DNA from: Haloplasmatales bacterium 4B
GTDB taxonomy: Bacteria; Bacillota_I; Bacilli_A; Haloplasmatales; Haloplasmataceae
Reading direction: 5' to 3'
NCBI GenBank assembly: GCA_003586005.1
Contig: NSKI01000009.1
Span: 1 to 64,000, forward strand
Length of the DNA: 64,000 nucleotides
Shown here: one piece after another, positions 1 through 55,809 of the stretch
How the letters are laid out: each line of letters opens with the position of its first letter
Position numbering within the stretch: the first letter of the stretch is position 1
The notes under the pieces: model-generated
Database searches by the model: none
The model's input: the letters and a program-made list of their open reading frames with translations, nothing else
What the model was told of the DNA's origin: nothing
Program-made: the position numbers and the translations under genes

Positions 1-557
1 ATCTGACTAGATTATATCAAAAAAAGAATTGTAATAACCGACATTTTTAACCGCGATTTTCCTACAATTCTATTGTGCCATATACAAAAAATTTTTATAG
101 GATAGTAATTGTTTGATTTATAAATCCCTTTTAACAAACATTAGCGTAAAATTAGAGAGAATAACATCCAAACATAAATGGAGACGATTGTGAGGATAGA
201 GAGGAAATAGATTGATATTAAATGATTTAGAGGTTATTAACTGAAAATTGAGCATATTTTTTGTTCCCTCAGATTAGAAAGTTTGGGGGAATTTGCTTTA
301 AGGGGTAGTAGTTAGGTAGTCAAATTCTTAATTTAATATACAAGTCTACTAAAAACCCATAGATATATGATGAACGTATTGTACTATTAGATGTACAAAT
401 GTATAATTAGGTAAGATGAAGGGATGGGGACGTTAAGTTAGCATTTAGTATACCAAACTTTCGAAACATCTATTAAGTAAAATTAAGAGGTACTTGTATG
501 TCTTGCCATAAGGTGGATTGTAACTAAAAACTATAAATTAATGGAGGATGAATTATT
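1..557. other. Intergenic region, no gene seen
   Basis: I find no convincing coding stretch on either strand here; all frames are broken by stops. The only structured element I can support is a promoter-like pair with an inverted repeat near 379-407, upstream of the broken M81 gene. The rest is AT-rich sequence that could be the eroded remains of older genes, but I recognise nothing in it. Confidence 0.5.
379..407 (+). promoter_or_regulatory. Candidate promoter with TTGTAC/GTACAA inverted repeat
   Basis: TTGTAC (379-384) and TATAAT (402-407) are separated by 17 bases. The -35 box is the left arm of an inverted repeat TTGTAC...GTACAA whose right arm lies in the spacer, a possible operator. 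It would drive the M81 pseudogene starting at 558. The distance to the gene (about 150 bases) is long, so a leader or a chance match is possible. Confidence 0.4.
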
Positions 558-1707
558 ATGAAAAGAATTTTAGTTGCAGCAATGCACCATGAGTCTAATT
601 CTTTTAACCCAATTATAACGTGTAAAAAAGATTTCAATGTAATATATGGAGATGATATTTTTAACAATTTACGAGATAATGATTCTGTGACAGGTATTAT
701 CAAGACTTTACAGGAAGTAGGATACGAAATAATACCTACTGTATTTGCTAGAGCTGTCCCTAATGGCGAGATTGATTATAATTTTTATATTAAAATAAAA
801 AACGAATCATAAAACGAGCAAAGGCTGCTCAAGAAGGGGCCCCAATAGATGCTATAACACTTTCATTGCACGGATTTATGAGAGTTAAAAAACAGGGAGA
901 GGCAGAAGGATATTTTATTGAAGAATTGAGAAGTATATTCCCTGATATTCCTATTTTCTCATCCCTTGATATGCACACCTCTATGACCAGTAGAATGCAT
1001 AGCAATTGTGATGGATTTGTAGGCTATAAATGTGCACCACATACGGATTGCTTTGAAACAGGCGAACATGCTGCAAAAATGACAATAAATACCCTAGAAA
1101 ATAACGCAAATGCAAAATCAGCTTGGGTGAGGGTACCTATTTTAATAGCTGGAGAACAATCATCAACTTCTGTAGAGACTATGATCGAACTTATACGTGC
1201 ACTGAGAGAGTGTGAAAGAAAAGAAGGATTAATGGCTGCTTCATATTTAATGGGTTTTTCTTGGGCAGATAATGAAGATGGTTCCATTGCTGTTTATGTA
1301 GTCGCCGATGGTGATCTTGAATTAGCGCAAAAAGAGGCAGTGAAATTAGCAGAACTTATTTGGGCTAAAAAAGATAATTTTAGTTTTCAAACAGAGACCT
1401 ATCATGAAAAAGAAGCTTTGGATGTTGTTTTTGAGGCAGTAAAAGAAGGTGAATTACCTATTTATATTTCTGATAGTACTGATTTTTTAAAATTAATAAT
1501 GTCCGACAATCGAACTGATACCCTTAGAAAACCAATAATATATGGTGGTATATATGACCCAATAGCTACAAAACAATGCGAAGGGCGGGTAGGCGAGGTA
1601 ATAACACTTACATTTGGTGCGAAATTTGATACTGCTACTTCATCTCCTATTACTACAACTGGAATAGTAAAGGCTTATATTAAGAATTGGTCTAGAAAAG
1701 GGAAGAT
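558..1707 (+). pseudogene. Broken M81 family (MlrC-like) metallopeptidase
   Basis: The first piece (558-812, 84 residues, starting MKRILVAAMHHESNSF) and the second (866-1711) are consecutive parts of one M81/MlrC-like protein: the N-terminal HHESN metal-ligand region, then SLHGFMR, SSLDMHTSMT and HTDCFETGEHAA, which are family hallmarks (DUF1485 domain), then the start of the C-terminal domain at PIYISDSTD. A frame break lies at about 800-866. The usual glycine/asparagine-rich DNPTAG segment after ISDS is lost, and the C-terminus is missing: coding homology stops where an IS110 remnant begins. A strong ribosome binding site (GGAGG at 543) remains. Members of this family act as zinc hydrolases on cyclic or small peptides and amides; this copy is very likely non-functional. 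Confidence 0.8.
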
Positions 1708-2013
1708 TTAGCTGGTCTATCATTAAAAGAAAATTCCAGTGAAATAAAAAAAGGAAAGCATCGCATTTCCAAACGAGGTAGACTAGGTCTAAGAAAGACC
1801 TTTAGATCCATAGCAATTAAACTCGTCAGATTTAACGAAACTTTCTAATACTTACATAAATATTATGCCACAGATAGAGAAAGAAAACTAACCAAAAAAG
1901 TTTTTTTAAATGCATTAACAAATAAATTTATCAGAATAATGTTAAGTTATCAAGAGTTATCTCAATTTCTAAGATTGTCACAGAAATTTGCGATAACATT
2001 AGAAAAAAAATAG
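1708..2013 (+). mobile_element. IS110-family transposase C-terminal remnant
   Basis: In one frame from the end of the M81 pseudogene, the translation reads LAGLSLKENSS, then GKHRISKRGRLGLRKTF, then YLHKYYATDRERKLTKK and NALTNKFIRIMLSY. This is the C-terminal (PF02371-type) region of IS110/IS116/IS902 transposases. One in-frame stop sits about 50 residues in, and there is no N-terminal DEDD domain, so the element is dead. It directly abuts and truncates the M81 gene. IS110 elements lack clear terminal inverted repeats, and I see none. Confidence 0.75.
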
Positions 2014-2032
2014 AGTGAAGGGGAGAGTTGAT

Positions 2033-2713
2033 ATGATACCAATATATATGGGGATATACGAGAATTTAGTTTCAAAACTTGATAGGAAAGAATATGACTA
2101 TGGTGACATGTTGCCAACTGAAAAAGAACTTTGTAAGGTATATAAAATAAGTCGTATGACAATCAATAAAGTACTTCAAATGTTGCAGCAAGAAGGACGC
2201 GACATAAGAACAACTGGAAAAGGCACATTTGTTAATGAACCGCAAGTAGATAAGGATATTTTTAAGTTGGCTTCTTTTTCCGAAGGAGCTAGACTTTTAG
2301 AATATCGAATGATATTTGATGTTGATGAGAAAATAAGAGAACGCCTCGAACTAGAAGAAATAGATTTTGTGCGAAATATTAAGCGAGTATTTATGGTAGA
2401 TGGGGATCCTATTGCATTAGATATAGATCGAATTTCTTCTAAAATTGGTGAAAAACTTAATGTAGAAAAACTAAAAGATTCTATATACTCCTATTTTGAA
2501 GAATGCTTACAAGTTAATAAATCACATTCAGATTTTACAATTAAATCTACAGATGCTACAAAAGAAATAGCTATATATTTACACATACAAGTGGGAGATC
2601 CTATTCTATATATGAAACATGTTACATATACAAAAAAAGGAATGTCATTTGAATATTGCCATTCGTACTACCGTGCAGACAAATATTCATTAAACATTAG
2701 GGCATACCGATAA
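2033..2713 (+). CDS. GntR/HutC-family transcriptional regulator
   Basis: A 226-residue regulator with an N-terminal winged helix-turn-helix (about residues 5-70: PIYMGIYENL, then GDMLPTEKELCKVYKISRMT, then the beta-wing GRDIRTTGKGTFV) and a C-terminal UTRA ligand-binding domain (about 85-225). The start at 2033 is chosen because GGGGAG lies 8 bases upstream; an in-frame GTG at 2015 precedes the binding site. It sits 1 base before a HAD hydrolase and upstream of nagA, so it is probably a NagR/DasR-like sensor of glucosamine-6-phosphate or GlcNAc-6-phosphate controlling the operon. The wing reads GRDIRT where the family usually has GLIRR, a small oddity. The effector is inferred from context only. 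Confidence 0.88.
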   Translation: MIPIYMGIYENLVSKLDRKEYDYGDMLPTEKELCKVYKISRMTINKVLQMLQQEGRDIRTTGKGTFVNEPQVDKDIFKLASFSEGARLLEYRMIFDVDEKIRERLELEEIDFVRNIKRVFMVDGDPIALDIDRISSKIGEKLNVEKLKDSIYSYFEECLQVNKSHSDFTIKSTDATKEIAIYLHIQVGDPILYMKHVTYTKKGMSFEYCHSYYRADKYSLNIRAYR

Positions 2714-2714
2714 T

Positions 2715-3491
2715 ATGAAAAAGAAACTATTAGCTTTTGATATAGATGGAACACTTGTCAATCCAGTGACACATAAAATCCCCGATTCTGCTTTACAAGC
2801 ATTAGAAATCTTAAAACAACAAGGACATATCGTTGGAATAGCAACAGGTAGAAATAAAACACAATTACAAAAAGTAATTGATCCCCAAAGATTTGATTTT
2901 ACCATTTTATGTAATGGTGGATATGCAGAAGTAGATGGGACTCCTGTAATTACTAATATGTATACTTTAGATGAAAAAAATACAGTAATTGAGCAATTAG
3001 AAAGATTTCACTTAGAATATGGTATTACAACACATGAACATTTGTATGCGGTAAATCCAGACTCAGATAATGTGCAAAAAGTAATTCAAGCATTTGATGT
3101 ATATACTCCATATAAGGAAAAAGATTTTACTAACATAGATGTGTATCAATTTTTAGTCTATGAAGACACTAAAACGATTCCATTACTCTCATTAAAAGAA
3201 GAAGATTATATCATTCATTCCTATGGTTGGTTTGGATATGATATTGATTTAAGGAATGTTTCAAAAGGAACTGCATTACAAATATTAATTAAGTATTTTT
3301 CGATAGATATTAGTGATTGTTTTGCTTTTGGAGATGGGGATAATGATGCGCACTTCTTGAAAGTATCGGGTACAGGAATAGCTATGAAAAATGGTTCTGA
3401 AAAAGCAAAAGAAAACGCAGATTTTATAACAACAGATGTTGAAGATGATGGGATTTACAATGCTCTAAAAGTATACGGATTTATAAAGTAG
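2715..3491 (+). CDS. Cof-type HAD-IIB family phosphatase
   Basis: 258 residues with all haloacid dehalogenase motifs in order: motif I FDIDGTLV near residue 8, with the Asp nucleophile and the second Asp; motif II GIATGR near residue 40; motif III lysine near KGTALQIL; and motif IV FGDGDNDAHFL near residue 205. A C2-type cap lies between motifs II and III, giving the HAD-IIB/Cof subclass, whose members dephosphorylate sugar phosphates and similar small molecules. It lies between the GntR regulator (1-base gap) and nagA (8-base gap), so it is co-transcribed and probably acts on a hexose- or amino-sugar phosphate. The exact substrate cannot be read from sequence. Confidence 0.9.
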   Translation: MKKKLLAFDIDGTLVNPVTHKIPDSALQALEILKQQGHIVGIATGRNKTQLQKVIDPQRFDFTILCNGGYAEVDGTPVITNMYTLDEKNTVIEQLERFHLEYGITTHEHLYAVNPDSDNVQKVIQAFDVYTPYKEKDFTNIDVYQFLVYEDTKTIPLLSLKEEDYIIHSYGWFGYDIDLRNVSKGTALQILIKYFSIDISDCFAFGDGDNDAHFLKVSGTGIAMKNGSEKAKENADFITTDVEDDGIYNALKVYGFIK

Positions 3492-3499
3492 GTGAGAAA

Positions 3500-4636
3500 A
3501 TGATATTAAAAAATGCGACAATAGTAAATGCTCTTTCGACGCTTGAACATGGATATATAAAAATACAAAATGGAAAAATTGTCGAAGTAGGAACTGATTG
3601 TAGAGAAGATGGTATCGATTTACAAGAAAATTATGTGTTGCCAGGATTCATCGATATGCATATCCATGGGACTAATGGTGTTGATGTTATGGATGGAACA
3701 GTAGAAGCTTTAGATATTATGACATCAAATTTAATAAAAGAGGGGACAACTTCGTTTTTACCTACAACACTTACGATGTCTAAAGATAAAATTAAACATG
3801 CAATTCAAAATGTTGTTAAATATAGAGGAAACCCAAAAGGATCAAAGATTCTAGGAATTCATTTAGAAGGTCCATTTGTTAATAAAAAATTTAAAGGTGC
3901 ACAAAACGAGTCCTATATTCAACAGCCAACAATCTCTTATTTACAAGAACTTCTAGATCTTGCTGATGGAAAAATAAAAAATATTACTTATGCATGTGAA
4001 GAAGCACCATTAGAATTTACAAAATTTCTTGTTGAAAACAAGATTATTCCAAGTGTTGGGCATAGTTCTGCCACAATGGAAGAAGTGTTAAATCATGTGA
4101 ATTATGGTTTGAAGAATGTAACCCATTTTCATAACGGACAATCTCCACATAATCATAGATTTCCTGGTGTTGTAAGTGCTGGTTTCTATAGTGATGAACT
4201 CACTACAGAAATGATTGTAGATGGTGTTCATTTGCACAAAGATGTTGTGAAGATGACTCATAAAATTAAGACCAAAGACCGAATTTTATTGATTACAGAT
4301 TCAATGATGGCAAAAGGATTGGGAAACGGGTCTTATACACTTGGTGGATTAAATGTCGTTAAAACAGATACTGAAGTTAGAGCAGAAAGTGGTTCACTTG
4401 CAGGTAGTATTCTGAAAATGTCAGATGCGGTAAAAAATATGCTTGCATTTACCGAATGTTCTATAAATGAAATTGTTTCAATGACATCATATAACCAAGC
4501 AAAACAACTTAAAATTGATGATCAATTAGGGAAAATAGAAGCAGGTTATACAGCAGATTTAGTTGTCCTTGACAAAACGTTCCAATTGATTCAAACCATT
4601 CGTGAAGGAATAACTGTTTACTCCAGCACATTCTAA
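3500..4636 (+). CDS. nagA: N-acetylglucosamine-6-phosphate deacetylase
   Basis: 378 residues, the usual length for NagA, an amidohydrolase that converts GlcNAc-6-phosphate to glucosamine-6-phosphate and acetate in the cytoplasm. Visible hallmarks are the N-terminal beta-sandwich, DMHIHGTNGVDVMDG near residue 52, the metal-binding Glu in GIHLEGPF near 117, metal-binding His in GHSSAT (~186) and THFHNG (~207), and the catalytic Asp in LITDSMMA (~265). The ribosome binding site is AGGTGAG just upstream of ATG 3500. Operon partners are the GntR regulator and HAD hydrolase; no nagB is in the window. Following this gene is a sugar-phosphate kinase remnant, hinting that the operon was once longer. 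Confidence 0.95.
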   Translation: MILKNATIVNALSTLEHGYIKIQNGKIVEVGTDCREDGIDLQENYVLPGFIDMHIHGTNGVDVMDGTVEALDIMTSNLIKEGTTSFLPTTLTMSKDKIKHAIQNVVKYRGNPKGSKILGIHLEGPFVNKKFKGAQNESYIQQPTISYLQELLDLADGKIKNITYACEEAPLEFTKFLVENKIIPSVGHSSATMEEVLNHVNYGLKNVTHFHNGQSPHNHRFPGVVSAGFYSDELTTEMIVDGVHLHKDVVKMTHKIKTKDRILLITDSMMAKGLGNGSYTLGGLNVVKTDTEVRAESGSLAGSILKMSDAVKNMLAFTECSINEIVSMTSYNQAKQLKIDDQLGKIEAGYTADLVVLDKTFQLIQTIREGITVYSSTF

Positions 4637-4951
4637 ATTTTATTGGGTACTAGTGGGGAAGCATTAAAGAAAGGTATTAAAATGGAATTTGTCTCTTTTG
4701 GTAAAAATGGCGCCCTAGTATTTAATGATAATCACATGTACAAAGTAATAATACCAGTTATAAAAGCTATGAACCCAGAGGAATCAGGAGATTTTATGTT
4801 AGTTGGGTTTGTAGTATCTTTGAAAAGAAATTATGAATTTAAATATTTGTTAAAATTTCCCTCAACTTGTGGAATGGCTAATGCTATGGAAACTGAAACT
4901 GGGAAAATTGATATAGATAATATAAATCTACTTATTAGAAATGCGAGGTAG
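4637..4951 (+). pseudogene. PfkB-family (FruK/LacC-like) sugar-phosphate kinase remnant
   Basis: An open stretch of about 100 residues whose first part (LLGTSGEALKKGI) matches the 'DTSGEAL' segment of 1-phosphofructokinase/tagatose-6-phosphate kinase. It then jumps directly to the VSFGKNGALVF strand and the C-terminal ATP-binding region (ESGDFMLVGF in place of the usual GSGDSMVAGF, then CGMANAMETETGKID). The N-terminal half and roughly 50 residues between the two blocks are missing, and the catalytic loop has lost its first glycine. The stretch lacks a good start and begins immediately after the nagA stop. I read it as a deletion-scarred kinase fragment, not a functional protein. Confidence 0.7.
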
Positions 4952-5114
4952 CCAGATTATCGGTTATAATAAAATAGAAAATCCAACTATGTAAAAAGTA
5001 ATATAAAAAAAATAAATGGATAAATTTAGTAATAAGCTAAATATAGAATAAAGTAATAGTTAATAATGGATGGAAATTGAGAGTTGAAGTTATCAACTAT
5101 TGGAAGTGATAAAA

Positions 5115-5846
5115 ATGAATAAGTCATTAAAAAGAGTGTTTGTGACCACATTTATAATAATTGAATTCACAATGTATGTATTATTTATGTTTATTACAGA
5201 TGATGTTCCGGTAATAAAATTACAGTATGCAGGAATTATATTGTGTGTTTGTTTTAGTTTTATAATTTATAACAACTTAATAAATACTTGGACCGTTCGT
5301 ACTGCTTTATTTTTTACAGCTATCGCAGATTTATTTTTATTAATAATGGTTGGCTATGAATTAATAGGTGTTATCGTATTTAGTATTGTTCAACTTATTT
5401 ATGGAATTAGGCTAATGTTTATGGATAATCGTAAACTTAAGCTTTATGAGTCAATTAATTTGAGACTAGCTTTTATTGTTATATTTCAAATAATTGGTTT
5501 AATTATCGTTAAGAATTATGATCCATTGGCCCTAGTTTCATCTTTTTATCTAGCTAACCTGGTTACGAATGTCTTCTTAGCATTTTACCACATTAAAACA
5601 AATACGATCTTTGCGATTGGTTTATTCTTTTTTCTTTGTTGCGATATTTTTGTGGGGCTAAATAATAGTCAAGGTTATCTTGATATATCAAGAGACTCAA
5701 TTTGGGCTAAATTATTAAATCTTCCAATTGATTTAATGTGGTTTTTCTATTTTCCGTCTCAAGTACTCATTACAATTAGTATCTTAACTTATAAAAGTGA
5801 TTCTAGCTTTACTAGGAATGATGGACGGTTAGGAAAACAGGTTTAA
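5115..5846 (+). CDS. Multi-pass membrane protein, possibly YhhN/TMEM86-like
   Basis: 243 residues, almost entirely hydrophobic, with about 8 predicted membrane segments. The start at ATG 5115 follows GGAAGTG by 6 bases; an upstream TTG at 5100 is less likely. Short patterns such as FTAIADLFLLIMVG (~residues 68-81), FSIVQLIYGIRL and FFFLCCDIFVGL recall the YhhN/TMEM86 (lysoplasmalogenase) family, where conserved aspartates sit in membrane helices after 'F..GD' type motifs, but the match is weak. The gene stands alone, followed by a clear terminator at 5900-5928. Function not assigned. Confidence 0.6.
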   Translation: MNKSLKRVFVTTFIIIEFTMYVLFMFITDDVPVIKLQYAGIILCVCFSFIIYNNLINTWTVRTALFFTAIADLFLLIMVGYELIGVIVFSIVQLIYGIRLMFMDNRKLKLYESINLRLAFIVIFQIIGLIIVKNYDPLALVSSFYLANLVTNVFLAFYHIKTNTIFAIGLFFFLCCDIFVGLNNSQGYLDISRDSIWAKLLNLPIDLMWFFYFPSQVLITISILTYKSDSSFTRNDGRLGKQV

Positions 5847-5899
5847 AGCCACACAAATCGAGAACGACATTTTGCCAATATAGAAATAGTGTTATATAT

Positions 5900-5928
5900 A
5901 GAGGCTGATTTTTTTTAGCCTCTTTTTG
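5900..5928 (+). terminator. Rho-independent terminator
   Basis: AGAGGCT (5900-5906) pairs with AGCCTCT (5917-5923) around a T-rich loop, followed by a T run. It closes the membrane-protein transcript. Confidence 0.8.
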
Positions 5929-6359
5929 CTATATTTGATTGTTTAACAATAATGTAATTATCGATAACAATCTTCAGAAACCAGATTATGGGCGAAAGAA
6001 TAATTTAATGATAATTGTCATCAAATACTGTTTTTCTCAGTTTTTCTTTATATATCAGACATTTTTTTCTTTATTTCTTACTGAAGTAAATCCATAAACA
6101 AAGGTTGTTCCAAGAATGCACAATTTCGCTATTTATAATGCCAATAACTACCAACAATTTTATCTGAAGAGGTATTAAAAATAACAAAAAATGCGAAATT
6201 TACCACAATAGAATGCCTTAAATCGAGAAAACGCCAATCTTTTCTTATGTAAAAATAACCAGGAGTTTTAGGTTTTATCTTATCACAATAATTTGATTAT
6301 GAGGAGAAAAAGTATAAACTAAGCTGTAAGATAAGATAATAAATTAAGAGGTGGACTTT
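5929..6359. other. Intergenic region upstream of the germination operon
   Basis: About 430 bases without a supported gene on either strand. It must hold the promoter of the ger operon. In spore formers such operons are normally read by the forespore sigma factor (SigG), but I see no clean SigG -10/-35 pair. The GTAAGATAAGATAATAA stretch just upstream of the start is AT-rich spacer. An imperfect palindrome TGATAATTGTCATCA (6009-6023) is present but unassigned. Confidence 0.45.
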
Positions 6360-7958
6360 ATGTTTAGGACATTAATTAGAAAATTTAATTATTTAAAATT
6401 AAATTCTTTAAATAACTCTTCTATTAAGAATACCCCAAAAAAAGAAGAAATTCCAAAATCTATAAAAGAAATTAAAAACAAATTGAACCAAACATTTTCT
6501 GAATGTAATGATTTTATTACTCGTGAACTTGAAATAGGAGAAAAACGAGAGATAAAAGTTATTATTGCCTACATAGATGGTCTTGTAGAAAAGAAAATGG
6601 TCGATACAGAAATAATAAAACCAATATTAATAGATTCAAGATTAACAAAACTGAATCAAGAATTTAATAAAAAAACAACAATTGAAATTTTAAAAGAAAA
6701 TATAATAAGTATCAGTGGACTTAACGAAGTCGATGATTTTAATGAAAGTATTCAAAGTATTCTTTCTGGGGATACAATGACTTATATTGATGGAAATAAA
6801 AAAGCATTAAAAGCTGATACAAGAGGTTTTGAATTTAGAGGTGTAGAGGAACCAGATACTGAATCGGTTGTACGGGGTCCTCGGGAAGGCTACACCGAGT
6901 CAATCAGAATAAATACAGCCTTACTACGGAGAAAAGTAAAAAATGCTAATCTTAAATTTGAATCTCTGAAATTAGGGAAACAAACTAATACAGATGTGAT
7001 GGTATGCTACATAAAAGGAATTGCTCATGATGATGTTGTTGAAACAGTCAAAAGGAGATTAAAGAAGATTAATACGGATGCTATTCTTGAATCAGGATAT
7101 ATTGAAGAATTTATTGAAGATGCACCTTTATCTATTTTTCCAACTGTTGGTAATACTGAAAAACCTGATATAACCGCAGCAAAAATATTAGAAGGCAGGG
7201 TGGCAATTTTATGTGACGGAACACCTTTTGTACTTACCGTACCTTATTTGTTTGTTGAATCAATACAAGCAAGTGAAGATTATTACTCTCGATTTATTTC
7301 TTCATCTTTTTTAAGACTTATTAGAATATTAGCATTAGCATCTTCAACATTAACTCCGGCAATTTATGTTGCTTTACTTTGCTTTCATCAGGACATTATT
7401 CCAGCAAAACTGATGATAACTATAGTTTCATCACGTGAAGGTGTTCCATTTTCAGCCTTTATTGAAGCGGCATTAATGATAATAGCATTTGAACTATTAA
7501 GAGAAGCAGGTGTTAGAATGCCGAGACAAATTGGACAAGCCGTTAGTATTGTAGGGGCTTTGGTACTCGGACAATCTGCTGTTGAAGCTGGGTTAATAAG
7601 TAGTATGATGGTAATTGTAATCGCTGTAACTGCTATCACTAGTTTTATTGTTTCTTCAATGGACAGAACTATCCCTTTCTTAAGATTTGCTTTGCTAATA
7701 GGCGCTAATGTGATAGGATTTATGGGTATATTTTTAGTTTCAGAAGTCATACTAATCTATATGTGTTCATTAAGGTCTTTCGGTGTACCTTATTTGGCTC
7801 CGTTTTCTCCTTTAAATGGGATGGACTTGAAAGATACTTTTATTAGAGTACCTGTTTGGGCTATGTTAAAAAGACCGAAAGCATTAACAGAAAATAAAGA
7901 TGGCGGTGAACAGTCTGGATATAGGATGAAAGTCAATTATAGAAAGAAGGAGGATTAA
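6360..7958 (+). CDS. GerA-type spore germination receptor A subunit
   Basis: 532 residues with GerA-family architecture: a long hydrophilic N-terminal half (residues 1-~290, with the conserved GDTMTYIDG and FRGVEEPDTESVVRGPREGY blocks), then 5-6 membrane segments (from ~315), including EAALMIIAFELLREAGVRMP and the VGALVLGQSAVEAGL signature. It is the A subunit of the nutrient germinant receptor in the spore inner membrane. ATG 6360 is chosen because AGAGGTGG lies 5 bases upstream; an in-frame GTG at 6351 is inside that site. The operon continues with the C subunit 7 bases downstream and the B subunits beyond. It marks the organism as an endospore former or a recent ex-sporulator. Confidence 0.93.
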   Translation: MFRTLIRKFNYLKLNSLNNSSIKNTPKKEEIPKSIKEIKNKLNQTFSECNDFITRELEIGEKREIKVIIAYIDGLVEKKMVDTEIIKPILIDSRLTKLNQEFNKKTTIEILKENIISISGLNEVDDFNESIQSILSGDTMTYIDGNKKALKADTRGFEFRGVEEPDTESVVRGPREGYTESIRINTALLRRKVKNANLKFESLKLGKQTNTDVMVCYIKGIAHDDVVETVKRRLKKINTDAILESGYIEEFIEDAPLSIFPTVGNTEKPDITAAKILEGRVAILCDGTPFVLTVPYLFVESIQASEDYYSRFISSSFLRLIRILALASSTLTPAIYVALLCFHQDIIPAKLMITIVSSREGVPFSAFIEAALMIIAFELLREAGVRMPRQIGQAVSIVGALVLGQSAVEAGLISSMMVIVIAVTAITSFIVSSMDRTIPFLRFALLIGANVIGFMGIFLVSEVILIYMCSLRSFGVPYLAPFSPLNGMDLKDTFIRVPVWAMLKRPKALTENKDGGEQSGYRMKVNYRKKED

Positions 7959-50882: not shown

Positions 50883-50911
50883 TTTTAAATAATATTTAAA
50901 CATGTTATAAT
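50883..50911 (+). promoter_or_regulatory. Promoter of the hflX attenuator leader
   Basis: TATAAT (50906-50911) with a weak -35 (TTTTAA, 50883-50888) at 17 bases. Transcription would begin near 50918, about 24 bases before the first leader peptide. Confidence 0.6.
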
Positions 50912-50941
50912 TTATTTATATTAAGAAATAGAGGTGCAAGG

Positions 50942-50971
50942 ATGTATATTGCAATTATGAGACTTCGATAA
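50942..50971 (+). CDS. Leader peptide 1 (MYIAIMRLR) of hflX
   Basis: A nine-codon frame, M-Y-I-A-I-M-R-L-R, then TAA, with GAGGTG (50931-50936) 5 bases before the ATG and a promoter -10 box 30 bases upstream. The C-terminal MRLR matches the macrolide-dependent ribosome-arrest motif (Arg-X-Arg type) of the ErmD-class leader peptides. It is followed by hairpins at 50997-51026, 51071-51099 and a strong terminator at 51120-51162. I infer that a macrolide-stalled ribosome here changes leader folding and lets RNA polymerase pass the terminator. Confidence 0.72.
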   Translation: MYIAIMRLR

Positions 50972-50996
50972 TTAGTTTACATATTTAACTGAACTA

Positions 50997-51026
50997 AAGT
51001 AAGGTTTTTTTAATTATGCCTTATTT
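50997..51026 (+). other. Leader hairpin between leader peptide 1 and terminator
   Basis: AAGTAAGG (50997-51004) pairs with CCTTATTT (51019-51026). Its loop is T-rich. A copy of ATATTGCAAT within leader 1 (50947-50956) recurs at 51032-51041 and, being self-complementary, could pair with it as an alternative structure. Confidence 0.5.
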
Positions 51027-51070
51027 GGAGAATATTGCAATGAACATTCCTAACCACTAAATGTATTTTT

Positions 51071-51099
51071 TTATAGGCAAAACCTATGAGATTTTTTAT
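51071..51099 (+). terminator. Weak candidate terminator in hflX leader
   Basis: ATAGG (51073-51077) pairs with CCTAT (51083-51087) around CAAAA, with TTTTTT at 51092-51097. The stem is short; it may be a pause site or part of an alternative fold. Confidence 0.4.
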
Positions 51100-51119
51100 T
51101 CTATTTATAGAGCGCTTAT

Positions 51120-51162
51120 AAGAGTTACTGATGGATTATGTTCATTTGTAACTCTTTTTATG
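51120..51162 (+). terminator. Strong terminator upstream of hflX (attenuator)
   Basis: AAGAGTTAC (51120-51128) pairs perfectly with GTAACTCTT (51148-51156), followed by TTTTAT. It stands between leader peptide 1 and leader peptide 2/hflX, so in the absence of antiterminating conditions it should stop transcription before hflX. Confidence 0.85.
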
Positions 51163-51181
51163 TTAATTAAGGAGGGATAAA

Positions 51182-51199
51182 ATGAGGTTAAGAAGATAA
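51182..51199 (+). CDS. Leader peptide 2 (MRLRR) of hflX
   Basis: A five-codon frame, M-R-L-R-R, then TAA, with an excellent ribosome binding site AAGGAGGG ending 5-6 bases before the ATG. The first four residues MRLR are the minimal sequence known to arrest ribosomes carrying erythromycin. Stalling here would place a ribosome over 51190-51210, next to the stem that masks the hflX ribosome binding site, so this leader likely acts at the translational level. Confidence 0.72.
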   Translation: MRLRR

Positions 51200-51202
51200 T
51201 AC

Positions 51203-51275
51203 GCGGATCAGAAAGTATCCTTTAAGTTGGAGAAAAATGATTCCGTGCTAAATTTAAATAAGCAATTTAAAGGAG
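51203..51275 (+). promoter_or_regulatory. RNA stem masking the hflX ribosome binding site
   Basis: TCCTTTAA (51218-51225) is exactly complementary to TTAAAGGA (51267-51274), which contains the hflX Shine-Dalgarno site AAAGGAG. A competing pairing is possible between CGCGGATCA (51203-51210) and TGATTCCGTG (51238-51247). This is the layout of a translational attenuator downstream of a stalling leader. Confidence 0.6.
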
Positions 51276-51284
51276 AGAGATATT

Positions 51285-52541
51285 ATGGAACATAAACAAA
51301 ATGCACTTTTAGTAGGTGTGAATGAATTAAATCAATCTTATTTCGAGGAGTCAATGGAGGAGCTTAGTAATTTAGCAATTGCATGTGAATATAATGTTGT
51401 TGGGAAAATAGTGCAAAATTTGAAAGCTATAAATAAGGTCTTTTATATGGGCTCTGGTAAAGTTAAGGAAGTCGTGACATTAATTGATGAGTTGGATGTC
51501 GATGCGATTATATTCAATAATGAATTAACTCCATCTCAATTGAGAAATTTAGAAAAAACTTTGAAACGAAATATACTAGATAGAACATCAGTAATTTTAG
51601 AAATTTTTAGCAAGCGTGCTAAAACTAGAGAAGCTAAACTTCAAGTTGAAGTGGCAAGACTACAATATATGTTACCTAGATTAATAGGACTAAATGAAGC
51701 AATGGGACGACAAAGTGGAGGAGTAGGTACTAAAAACAAAGGAACTGGTGAAAAACAATTAGAACTTGATCGTAGAAAAATTGAAGGGAAAATCATTGAG
51801 TTAAACAAAGAATTAAAGTTGATAAATAACGAACGACAAACTCAACGTAAAAAACGAAACAAAGCTGAATTACCAGTTGTTGCACTAGTGGGATATACAA
51901 ATGCTGGTAAATCAACACTTATGAATGCTATCATTGATTTTGTTCATAAATCTGAGGATAAAAAGGTTTTGGAAAAAGATATGTTATTTGCAACACTTGA
52001 AACATCGGTTAGAAATATTAAACTGAAAGATAATAAAACGTTTCTTTTAGCTGATACGGTTGGCTTTGTTAGTAAATTACCACATAATTTAGTTAAGGCT
52101 TTTCGTTCAACTCTTGAAGAAGTAAGAGATGCAGATTTATTACTTCACATTATAGATACATCAAACCCAAACTATAAACAACAAATTGAGGTAACAAACG
52201 AAACTTTAAAACAAATTGGAGTAAAAGATACAGCTATAGTTTATGTGTATAATAAATCTGATTTGACGGAAAAGAGTATACCTATTGTTGAAAATGATGA
52301 TGTTTATATTTCTGCAAAGTATAATATCGGTTTAGAAGAATTAGTTGAAGTAATAAAGAGTAAAATATTTAGACAATATTTTGAGTGCCAAATGCTTATT
52401 CCCTATGATCAAGGAAGTATCGTTTCATATTTGAATGAATTTACACATGTAAAATCAGTTAGTTATAGAGATAATGGAACATTGTTAACAATTGAATGTA
52501 GACAAAGAGTGTTTGATCAATATAAACAATTTGTTCAATAA
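51285..52541 (+). CDS. hflX: HflX-type ribosome-associated GTPase
   Basis: 418 residues with HflX domain order: N-terminal ligand-binding domain (1-~95; VGVNELNQSYFEES, YMGSGKVKEV, IIFNNELTPSQLRNLEKTL), a helical coiled-coil with the glycine-rich RQSGGVGTKNKGTGEKQLEL (~144-163), and a C-terminal G domain: G1 GYTNAGKSTLMN (~205), G2 FATLETSVR, G3 DTVGFV (~257), G4 NKSD (~323), G5 SAKYN. HflX splits stalled 70S/50S-bound ribosomes; a Listeria homologue, HflXr, gives macrolide-lincosamide resistance under antibiotic-controlled attenuation. The leader with two MRLR peptides suggests a similar resistance role here. Confidence 0.93.
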   Translation: MEHKQNALLVGVNELNQSYFEESMEELSNLAIACEYNVVGKIVQNLKAINKVFYMGSGKVKEVVTLIDELDVDAIIFNNELTPSQLRNLEKTLKRNILDRTSVILEIFSKRAKTREAKLQVEVARLQYMLPRLIGLNEAMGRQSGGVGTKNKGTGEKQLELDRRKIEGKIIELNKELKLINNERQTQRKKRNKAELPVVALVGYTNAGKSTLMNAIIDFVHKSEDKKVLEKDMLFATLETSVRNIKLKDNKTFLLADTVGFVSKLPHNLVKAFRSTLEEVRDADLLLHIIDTSNPNYKQQIEVTNETLKQIGVKDTAIVYVYNKSDLTEKSIPIVENDDVYISAKYNIGLEELVEVIKSKIFRQYFECQMLIPYDQGSIVSYLNEFTHVKSVSYRDNGTLLTIECRQRVFDQYKQFVQ

Positions 52542-54699: not shown

Positions 54700-54746
54700 T
54701 TGACATTCATAATATAATGGGATATATTCAATAGATGATTATCTAT
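54700..54746 (+). promoter_or_regulatory. Promoter and operator of the ars operon
   Basis: TTGACA (54700-54705), 17-base spacer, TATATT (54723-54728). Immediately downstream is the inverted repeat ATAGAT-GATT-ATCTAT (54731-54746), a likely ArsR operator that overlaps the transcription start. The position rules out ATG 54735 as the arsR start. Confidence 0.75.
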
Positions 54747-54761
54747 GTGGGTGGTGATTGT

Positions 54762-55073
54762 TTGGGAAATATTTATGATGATAATGCCAAAACTATTAAG
54801 GCAATATCAGATCCTAGTAAGCTTAAGATAGTTGATATTTTATCATGTGGCGAAAAATGTGCAAGTGATTTATTAGAGCATTTTAATTTTACTCAACCAA
54901 CACTTTCTCATCATATGAAGGTGTTAACTGAATGTGGTGTTGTGGATGTTAAAAAAACAGGATTATGGAATCATTATTTTCTAAATAAAGAAAATTATAA
55001 TAAACTAGTCATGTTCCTTGTGAAACTTATGAAAAATAATGAAGGTTGTATTTGTGAAGTAAATTGGAGGTAA
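54762..55073 (+). CDS. arsR: ArsR-family metalloregulator
   Basis: 103 residues, ArsR/SmtB winged helix. The helix-turn-helix is FTQPTLSHHMKVLTECGVVD (about residues 44-63), preceded by LSCGEKCASDLLEHF, whose two Cys (EKCxxD) lie at the start of the alpha-3 region, the As(III)-sensing place in ArsR proteins. A third Cys is in the DNA-binding helix and two more near the C-terminus (GCICE). The start is taken as TTG 54762, after GGTGG; an ATG at 54735 would fall on the operator. It heads an operon with arsC and a decayed ACR3 pump. Confidence 0.85.
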   Translation: MGNIYDDNAKTIKAISDPSKLKIVDILSCGEKCASDLLEHFNFTQPTLSHHMKVLTECGVVDVKKTGLWNHYFLNKENYNKLVMFLVKLMKNNEGCICEVNWR

Positions 55074-55075
55074 AG

Positions 55076-55405
55076 ATGAATAAAATAAAAATTGATATAG
55101 TAGGAAAGACTAATCAAAAATTAAAAAGAATTAATGATGAAATTAGTGAATCAAAAACGATGATGGAATTATATAATGAATTTGTTCAATTCATTTACAG
55201 CAGTGATGTGAAGGATATAGTTGAAACTCATTTCTATGATTTAGAAAAGGACCGAGAATCAAATTATCATATTTTAGGAAATTTAGCCGTTGCAAAAGGG
55301 TTAACATTACCACTTACTTTTATTAATGGCAAGTCTACTTTCCATGGTGGAATCGCTAATAATTCGATTTATCAAGAAATTAAAAAGATTATGAATATGG
55401 GGTAA
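55076..55405 (+). CDS. Small thioredoxin-fold-like protein in ars operon
   Basis: 109 residues: IKIDIVGKTNQKLKRINDEI, MMELYNEFVQFIYSSDVKDI, VETHFYDLEKDRES, then KGLTLPLTFINGKSTFHGGI. The alternating pattern and the 'lPLtFINGkstfhGGI' end look like a thioredoxin-type or ArsD-like fold, but no Cys pair of ArsD is present. It lies between arsR (2-base gap) and arsC (5-base gap), with GGAGG 5 bases before ATG 55076. Possibly an ArsD-like chaperone that lost its cysteines, or a distinct small family. Function not assigned. Confidence 0.65.
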   Translation: MNKIKIDIVGKTNQKLKRINDEISESKTMMELYNEFVQFIYSSDVKDIVETHFYDLEKDRESNYHILGNLAVAKGLTLPLTFINGKSTFHGGIANNSIYQEIKKIMNMG

Positions 55406-55410
55406 TAATT

Positions 55411-55809
55411 ATGAAAAAGGTAGCTTTTATTTGTATCCATAATTCTTGTAGGTCACAAATGGCTGAAGGTTTGGCTAAAGTCTTGGGAAAAGATGTAATT
55501 GAAGTTTATTCAGCGGGAACAGAGAAATATGAAGCAGTAAAACCACTTGCTATAAAAGTAATGGAAGAAGCAAATATTGATATATCTAGTCATCGCCCTA
55601 AATTATTATCAGAAATTCCAAAAGATGTCAACATCCTTATTACTATGGGTTGTGGAGTAGAATGTCCATTTATACCTTGTGATTATCGAGAAGATTGGGG
55701 CTTAACGGACCCATCAGGTGGTCCAATTGAAGACTTTAGAGAAACTAGGGACATAATTAAAGATAAAGTAATAGATTTAATTGAAAGAATTAAAAAAGGG
55801 AAGTTGTAA
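55411..55809 (+). CDS. arsC: Arsenate reductase, thioredoxin-coupled LMW-PTP type
   Basis: 132 residues, the length of Staphylococcus/Bacillus-type ArsC. The catalytic P-loop CIHNSCRS (Cys8-X5-Arg14) is at the N-terminus; SAGTEKYEAVKP follows, and the redox relay cysteines are in MGCGVECPFIPC (about residues 78-89), just before the YREDWGLTDPSG block with the general-acid Asp. The enzyme reduces arsenate to arsenite in the cytoplasm using thioredoxin. Its product must be exported, but the ACR3 gene behind it is broken, so an intact exporter elsewhere is needed for resistance. Confidence 0.93.
   Translation: MKKVAFICIHNSCRSQMAEGLAKVLGKDVIEVYSAGTEKYEAVKPLAIKVMEEANIDISSHRPKLLSEIPKDVNILITMGCGVECPFIPCDYREDWGLTDPSGGPIEDFRETRDIIKDKVIDLIERIKKGKL

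Follow-up and report, generated by a model that had tools for sequence, protein, structure and literature searches.

Two very short open reading frames, both containing MRLR, lie upstream of an hflX gene in the 64-kb stretch of DNA analysed here (the window), and the question raised by this locus is whether ribosomes stalled on them switch on hflX. A sequence-only reading had proposed that stalling on leader 1 relieves transcription termination and that stalling on leader 2 relieves masking of the hflX ribosome binding site. In a base-by-base check the coordinates of MYIAIMRLR (50942), MRLRR (51182), the 9-bp terminator and the 8-bp anti-Shine-Dalgarno (anti-SD) stem were right. Three features had been missed: a weak hairpin (T1), a switch region at 51034-51049, and the pairing of 51202-51210 with 51238-51247 in a hairpin that rivals the masking stem. 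Our analysis suggests that ribosomes stalled by macrolides probably turn on hflX in two successive steps. The reading that we favour, with reasonable but not high confidence, is an HflXr-type ribosome-splitting GTPase, probably horizontally acquired, under two-step ribosome-mediated attenuation. All features of the hflX region of the window described below are on the + strand.

The hflX gene is located at 51285-52541, with the ATG at 51285 and the stop codon ending at 52541. Its product scored 431.6 bits against TIGR03156 (cut-off 216.75), which places it in the HflX GTPase family. It is the second hflX in the host genome (2.26 Mb, 77 contigs, low GC); the other copy, at C37:118531, is 48% identical to it and has no RxR leader. 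The window HflX showed 52% protein identity to a Listeria HflXr-type chain, and solved structures exist for close HflX homologues. In a phylogeny of 41 HflX proteins, one split (97/95) separated housekeeping HflX from a group containing the Listeria HflXr chain and every included leader-bearing copy. The window hflX was found on the Listeria HflXr side of this split, outside the housekeeping clade, where it formed a clade (95/92) with the copies from genome G050 and from a Paraclostridium plasmid. The rli80-type copies of the window's own family clustered among themselves (99/97), and the window hflX was not with them. Thus the gene is an extra copy beside a housekeeping hflX, groups with Listeria HflXr and is preceded by RLR leaders, here two of them. 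Judging from the tree and the family model, it is probably an antibiotic-resistance (HflXr-type) copy of a ribosome-rescue gene, and the proposal of an HflX resistance device held up to this extent. Elsewhere in the window, at 54735-55809, the translations read as a small cluster of ArsR-type regulator, thioredoxin-like and arsC-like phosphatase ORFs.

Leader 1, MYIAIMRLR-stop, is encoded at 50942-50971 (ATG 50942, stop codon 50969-50971) behind the SD sequence AGAGGTG. Immediately upstream, at 50884-50911, is a candidate promoter, TTTAAA-16-TATAAT with a TG before the -10 hexamer, which matches the consensus at 10 of 12 positions, a match that is not by itself proof of function. Leader 2, MRLRR-stop, is encoded at 51182-51199 (ATG 51182, stop codon 51197-51199) with the SD sequence TAAGGAGGG. 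When 50912-51284 was shuffled with dinucleotides preserved, two mini-ORFs that encode RLR, have an SD sequence and do not exceed 15 codons were obtained in 0 of 20,000 shuffles, and one such mini-ORF in 29 of 20,000. The two leaders are also the only RLR mini-ORFs with an SD sequence on either strand of the window. GGAGG followed by MRLRR-stop was found in the window only, among 392 phylum-level genomes. A looser pattern matched 49 of 395 class-level genomes, a set that overlaps with the phylum-level one; among the listed sequences inspected, the window match alone ended with an in-frame stop codon. A search of hflX upstream regions recovered RxR leaders, and 19 RxR-leader hflX loci were examined, of which the window alone had two RLR leaders. 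A second double-RLR hflX was not found in 80 GTDB loci, 395 class-level genomes, 201 Bacilli, or 148 and 196 Clostridia.

Single leaders on hflX were found in relatives. In four other genomes of the window's family, one RxR leader (MFVKRRIRLVSIIK, MWFVSMNFRPGRIRLTAIVK, MFSIGRMRLSSVNQ and MIIMRLRLEKLQK) precedes a second hflX, and the housekeeping hflX copies of these four genomes have no RxR leader. About nine hflX copies from Bacilli carry similar single leaders, and an RNA segment is common to these and the family copies. A model of 14 rli80-type leaders (R1) was built on sequence only, because RNAalifold gave no consensus structure for this set. R1 recovered the unseen Listeria rli80 leader with E=0.0016 (MRYIRLRFPKNLCN, 14 aa, as in PMC6310831). 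In the window R1 gave no match at E<=10, and the conserved RNA after the stop codon (TAATTGAATAG...CGGGATTGGTCT) was not present. Leader 1 was therefore rejected as an rli80-type RNA, though it is similar in its predicted mode of action. An Rfam scan of the window returned no family. Other kinds of leader were also seen before hflX. Loci L119 and L121 have very short non-RxR leaders with GTG starts, MYIIFL-stop and MWIFFL-stop, respectively, which we take to resemble the MsrD leader MYLIFM. About 310 nt upstream of a resistance-type-group hflX in locus L086 there is a leader with a strong SD sequence, MYYWQIYLSL-stop, which lacks an RxR motif.

In the transcription layer, the main intrinsic-terminator candidate is T2 (51120-51161), which has a 9-bp stem and an upper stem (-17.1 kcal/mol) and a short U tract. 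The stem is formed by nine Watson-Crick pairs between AAGAGTTAC (51120-51128) and GTAACTCTT (51148-51156) and is followed by TTTATG. T2 was absent from a terminator consensus scan, which needs loops of 3-8, and this absence and the short U tract count against the two-step model. The weaker terminator-like hairpin T1 (51069-51101; stem 51069-51091, then TTTTTTATT / TTTTTTATTC; -7.7 kcal/mol) was rejected as a switched terminator, because in transcripts ending at 51098 it formed about equally in all ribosome states.

The switch region at 51034-51049 has two predicted partners. When leader 1 is free of ribosomes, it pairs with an anti-antiterminator arm inside leader 1 (50940-50955; 15 predicted pairs), which is the OFF state. 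In the ON state, AATGAACAT (51039-51047) pairs with its complement ATGTTCATT in the T2 loop (51138-51146), and all nine pairs are Watson-Crick. The antiterminator complement was equalled in 28 of 5,000 spacer shuffles, the 8-nt complement of the leader-1 arm was matched in 348 of 5,000, and both occurred jointly in 2 of 5,000. In folding of nascent transcripts with 3' ends at 51146-51150, the probability of the antiterminator was 0 without a ribosome and 0.82-0.93 when a ribosome occupied leader 1. However, complete T2 was favoured at equilibrium in every ribosome state, even with leader 1 covered, by 3.5-5.2 kcal/mol, which speaks against the two-step model. In the stalled state, a barrier of 13.3 kcal/mol has to be crossed to leave the antiterminator. 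The switch therefore needs the antiterminator to form first and to persist through the decision. In the folding model the layer-1 switch would thus operate kinetically only, which we judge plausible for attenuation. Of the proposal that leader-1 stalling relieves termination, the terminator, antiterminator and ribosome-sensitive anti-antiterminator helices are all present, above the shuffles, and what has been narrowed is the effect itself, to a kinetic one. Without drug, leader 1 would be translated to its stop codon, 51034-51049 would re-pair with the leader-1 start, and T2 would end transcription. A macrolide- or ketolide-bound ribosome would arrest at the MRLR of leader 1, and we infer that this drug-dependent stalling would free 51034-51049 to trap the T2 loop, so that the polymerase reads through.

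On the read-through mRNA, leader 2 would then act as sensor in a translational attenuator of the ErmC type, as in the mobile-looking macrolide operons to which it is related. A covariance model, R2, was made from four leaders of two operons, rlmA-hflX of genome G050 and mef-hflX-rlmN of the Paraclostridium plasmid, with the window left out of training. The R2 element of the window begins at the RLR codons of leader 2, reaches the start of hflX (51185-51287) and scored 36.7 bits, with E=0.0005 in 203 kb and E=0.005 genome-wide, where the next best match had 21 bits. The match covers sequence and hairpin over this whole interval except for the inner helix. No match at E<=0.1 was found in 100 other hflX loci, and in the family of G050 the element was present in 1 of 8 genomes. 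The four training elements have a common 14-bp hairpin just 3' of the leader stop codon, in which two pairs are compensated and 98% of cells are paired, vs 28-44% when the hairpin was slid. Its shuffle control gave 35 of 500, which is weak with four sequences only. By the covariance model, the leader-2 element is homologous to the translational attenuators of these operons. The simplest reading of model and tree together is that the window hflX was probably acquired horizontally together with its R2 element.

In both source operons, the gene that precedes hflX has a homologous R2 element as well. In G050, the hflX leader is MNIRGCIHSIRLRG, and the upstream gene encodes an RlmA-like 23S methyltransferase (NF008300, E=5.7e-50) with the leader MLAYIRLRG; the rlmA-like gene and hflX, each with its own RLR leader, occupy about 2379-7732 of locus L204 (G050:C1:2059000-2069000) and lie between two transposase-like genes, as judged by reading the proteins. 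On the Paraclostridium bifermentans plasmid NZ_CP094938.1 (pHD0315_2-5), which also encodes tetA(P) and tetB(P), the hflX leader is MMVICRGIFFLRLRG, and the upstream gene, with the leader MNAKQAVIIFGI, encodes a Mef(A)-like transporter, whose match to NF000245 (E=1.2e-104) falls short of the curated cut-off. Here mef(A)-like, hflX and rlmN/cfr-like genes, with three leader peptides and a terminator, are found at 150-4330 of locus L203. An extra first leader precedes G050 rlmA (MINLYRMINKLKIIDITPTYILYKYI) and plasmid mef (MKNLYMIINKLNKTHITPTKTY), followed by a terminator-like hairpin of -13.6 and -21.6 kcal/mol, respectively, and then by the R2-type leader. The order of leader and terminator, leader and R2 element, and gene is therefore found in three places including the window, and of these the window is the only one in which it stands directly before hflX and both leaders contain RLR. 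A DNA-level plasmid search with the window leader gave chance matches only, one with the leaders of both operons found the Paraclostridium plasmid only, and viral contigs held no relatives. The first leaders at L203:180-245 and L085:188-268 are homologous and have INKL..ITPT, and their ACTCC can pair either with the SD sequence of the leader itself or with a GGAGT that lies in the loop of the terminator. R2 also matched weakly (26.3 bits, E=0.06) at L203:18905-19000 of the same plasmid, before a small hypothetical ORF.

The anti-SD stem that masks the hflX SD sequence has a core of 8 bp between TCCTTTAA (51218-51225) and TTAAAGGA (51267-51274). It grows to 12 pairs including one G-U (51218-51229 with 51263-51274) when the 51202-51210 arm is blocked. 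An equal 8-nt match was obtained in 58 of 5,000 shuffles, which makes it less striking alone. The stem competes with the unmasking hairpin just 3' of the leader-2 stop codon (51202-51247), in which CGCGGATCA (51202-51210) pairs with TGATTCCGTG (51238-51247). This hairpin is the minimum-energy fold and predominates when no ribosome is present, and its outer part is the hairpin kept with compensatory changes in the relatives. The proposal that leader-2 stalling relieves masking gained from the recognition of the element by R2 and lost from this stronger ribosome-free hairpin and from the dependence on a footprint difference of about 2 nt described below.

Several of these results would also fit a locus in which only leader 1 is active, leader 2 being a decayed attenuator acquired with the gene, so that hflX is under ordinary single-leader transcription attenuation. 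The signs of decay are lost N-terminal codons (leader 2 has 5 codons vs 9-15 in the relatives), the absence of the inner half of the R2 helix, with four non-pairs, and an SD sequence exposed unless a ribosome is on leader 2, the naked RNA being predicted unmasked with an hflX SD opening cost of 1.2-1.4 kcal/mol. The missing inner helix and the open naked RNA also count against the two-step model directly. However, the near-consensus SD sequence of leader 2 is intact, its RLR codons are preserved and line up in register with the RLR codons of the relatives in the covariance-model alignment, the outer hairpin is retained, and the 12-bp masking stem is present. We regard activity of leader 1 alone as unlikely, although it keeps more weight than the other alternatives.

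The footprint computation bears on a second alternative, in which ribosomes on leader 2, whether stalled or terminating, block 51202-51210 and let the masking stem form, making leader 2 a brake or translational decoy. With the 3' edge of the ribosome at 51205 or beyond, the masking stem predominated and the opening cost rose from about 1.3 to about 4-4.5 kcal/mol, as this inverse role demands. A ribosome arrested with Leu3 in the P site is expected to have its edge at 51202-51204, and in this case the hflX SD sequence remained open; the sign of the leader-2 effect hinges on about 2 nt of the ribosome edge. ErmDL arrests when Leu occupies the P site and Arg the A site, short MRLR peptides arrest, and RLR is strictly required for arrest with telithromycin, less so with erythromycin (PMC8298421). 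When applied to the relative L085, this computation predicted that arrest unmasks the SD sequence (3.6 to 0.8 kcal/mol), which argues against a brake, and we consider this role improbable.

In the two-step model that we prefer, an arrested ribosome on leader 2 would favour the hairpin after the stop codon over the stem that masks the hflX ribosome binding site. Folding hints weakly that leader-2 arrest may unmask hflX; it is compatible with arrest keeping hflX open, vs ribosomes that reach the stop codon, but does not reveal a strong switch. HflX would then split and recycle drug-stalled ribosomes, from which resistance would follow. That the MRLR frames and hairpins are coincidental and hflX constitutive is very improbable, since the uncertainty of fold predictions in AT-rich RNA and an anti-SD match that is not rare alone are set against the shuffle statistics, a pattern unique to the window in the genome sets, the R2 homology, and RxR leaders on the second hflX of four same-family genomes with none on the housekeeping copies.

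A further step, which we put forward tentatively and at somewhat less than even likelihood, is that these loci represent an undescribed modular two-step attenuator, in which a transcription-attenuating leader and terminator are followed by a mobile R2 cassette, and which has been placed before rlmA, mef and hflX. On the window hflX it would use the same MRLR sensor twice, so that two independent arrests by drug would be required for full expression, as a threshold or AND gate for resistance. The tandem layout is a testable case for what two successive arrest peptides may provide: lower leakiness, a sharper threshold, or the sensing of different drugs. To our knowledge, drug tolerance through HflX has been described in few organisms, in most cases as a trait encoded on the chromosome. 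The occurrence of hflX with mef on a plasmid and with rlmA between transposase-like genes, that is, of a resistance-type hflX in mobile-looking macrolide operons with its own drug-sensing RNA, speaks for hflXr being a resistance gene that can be transferred.

Several parts of this arrangement are already known: a single RLR leader on hflX, tandem leaders on erm genes, and two-layer control on tlrB. The claim of novelty is confined to the doubled MRLR arrangement, whereas a single RLR leader on hflX had been described (PMC6310831, PMC8632094). In the open-licence literature we found no description of the doubled two-layer form on hflX or of a shared mobile element behind it, and these two, the latter being the R2 element, appear to be new here. 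Listeria monocytogenes hflXr/rli80 (Duval et al. 2018, PMC6310831) resembles the window in having a paralogue, an RLR leader and a terminator/antiterminator. However, rli80 has one leader (MRYIRLRFPKNLCN) and the transcription layer only, whereas the window has two leaders and two layers. The uORFC-6-1 motif, with 51 examples mainly in Bacillales, likewise consists of an RLR upstream ORF and RNA structure before hflX, but its upstream ORF is single (PMC8632094). It is probably the same thing as the rli80-type leaders.

Leader 1 shares its C-terminal MRLR with Mef(E)L (MTASMRLR) and ErmDL (MTHSMRLR), and the mef(E)/mel, erm(K) and erm(D) attenuators also place an MRLR-ending leader before a terminator, which for mef(E) has -18 kcal/mol and five U, close to T2 (PMC4335068). 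They control efflux or methylase genes, and only one leader is present in the mef(E) region, whereas the window has hflX and two leaders (PMC4335068). Bacillus subtilis tlrB/yxjB combines transcription and translation attenuation on one macrolide-resistance gene as in the window, but uses one leader peptide (RYR) for both layers, unlike the separate leader per layer found here (PMC6851288). The ermA, ermB and ermD regions also have two tandem leader peptides; in ErmB, however, the leaders overlap, attenuation is translational, and ErmBL2 (MITQINKYVILIPTSD) lacks RLR (PMC8274638). The operons of Paraclostridium pHD0315_2-5 and G050 are like the window in having a homologous R2 element before hflX and, before the first gene, a leader-terminator-leader order. 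There, the extra leader precedes mef or rlmA and lacks RLR, and hflX has one leader, whereas in the window both leaders carry RLR and both precede hflX itself.
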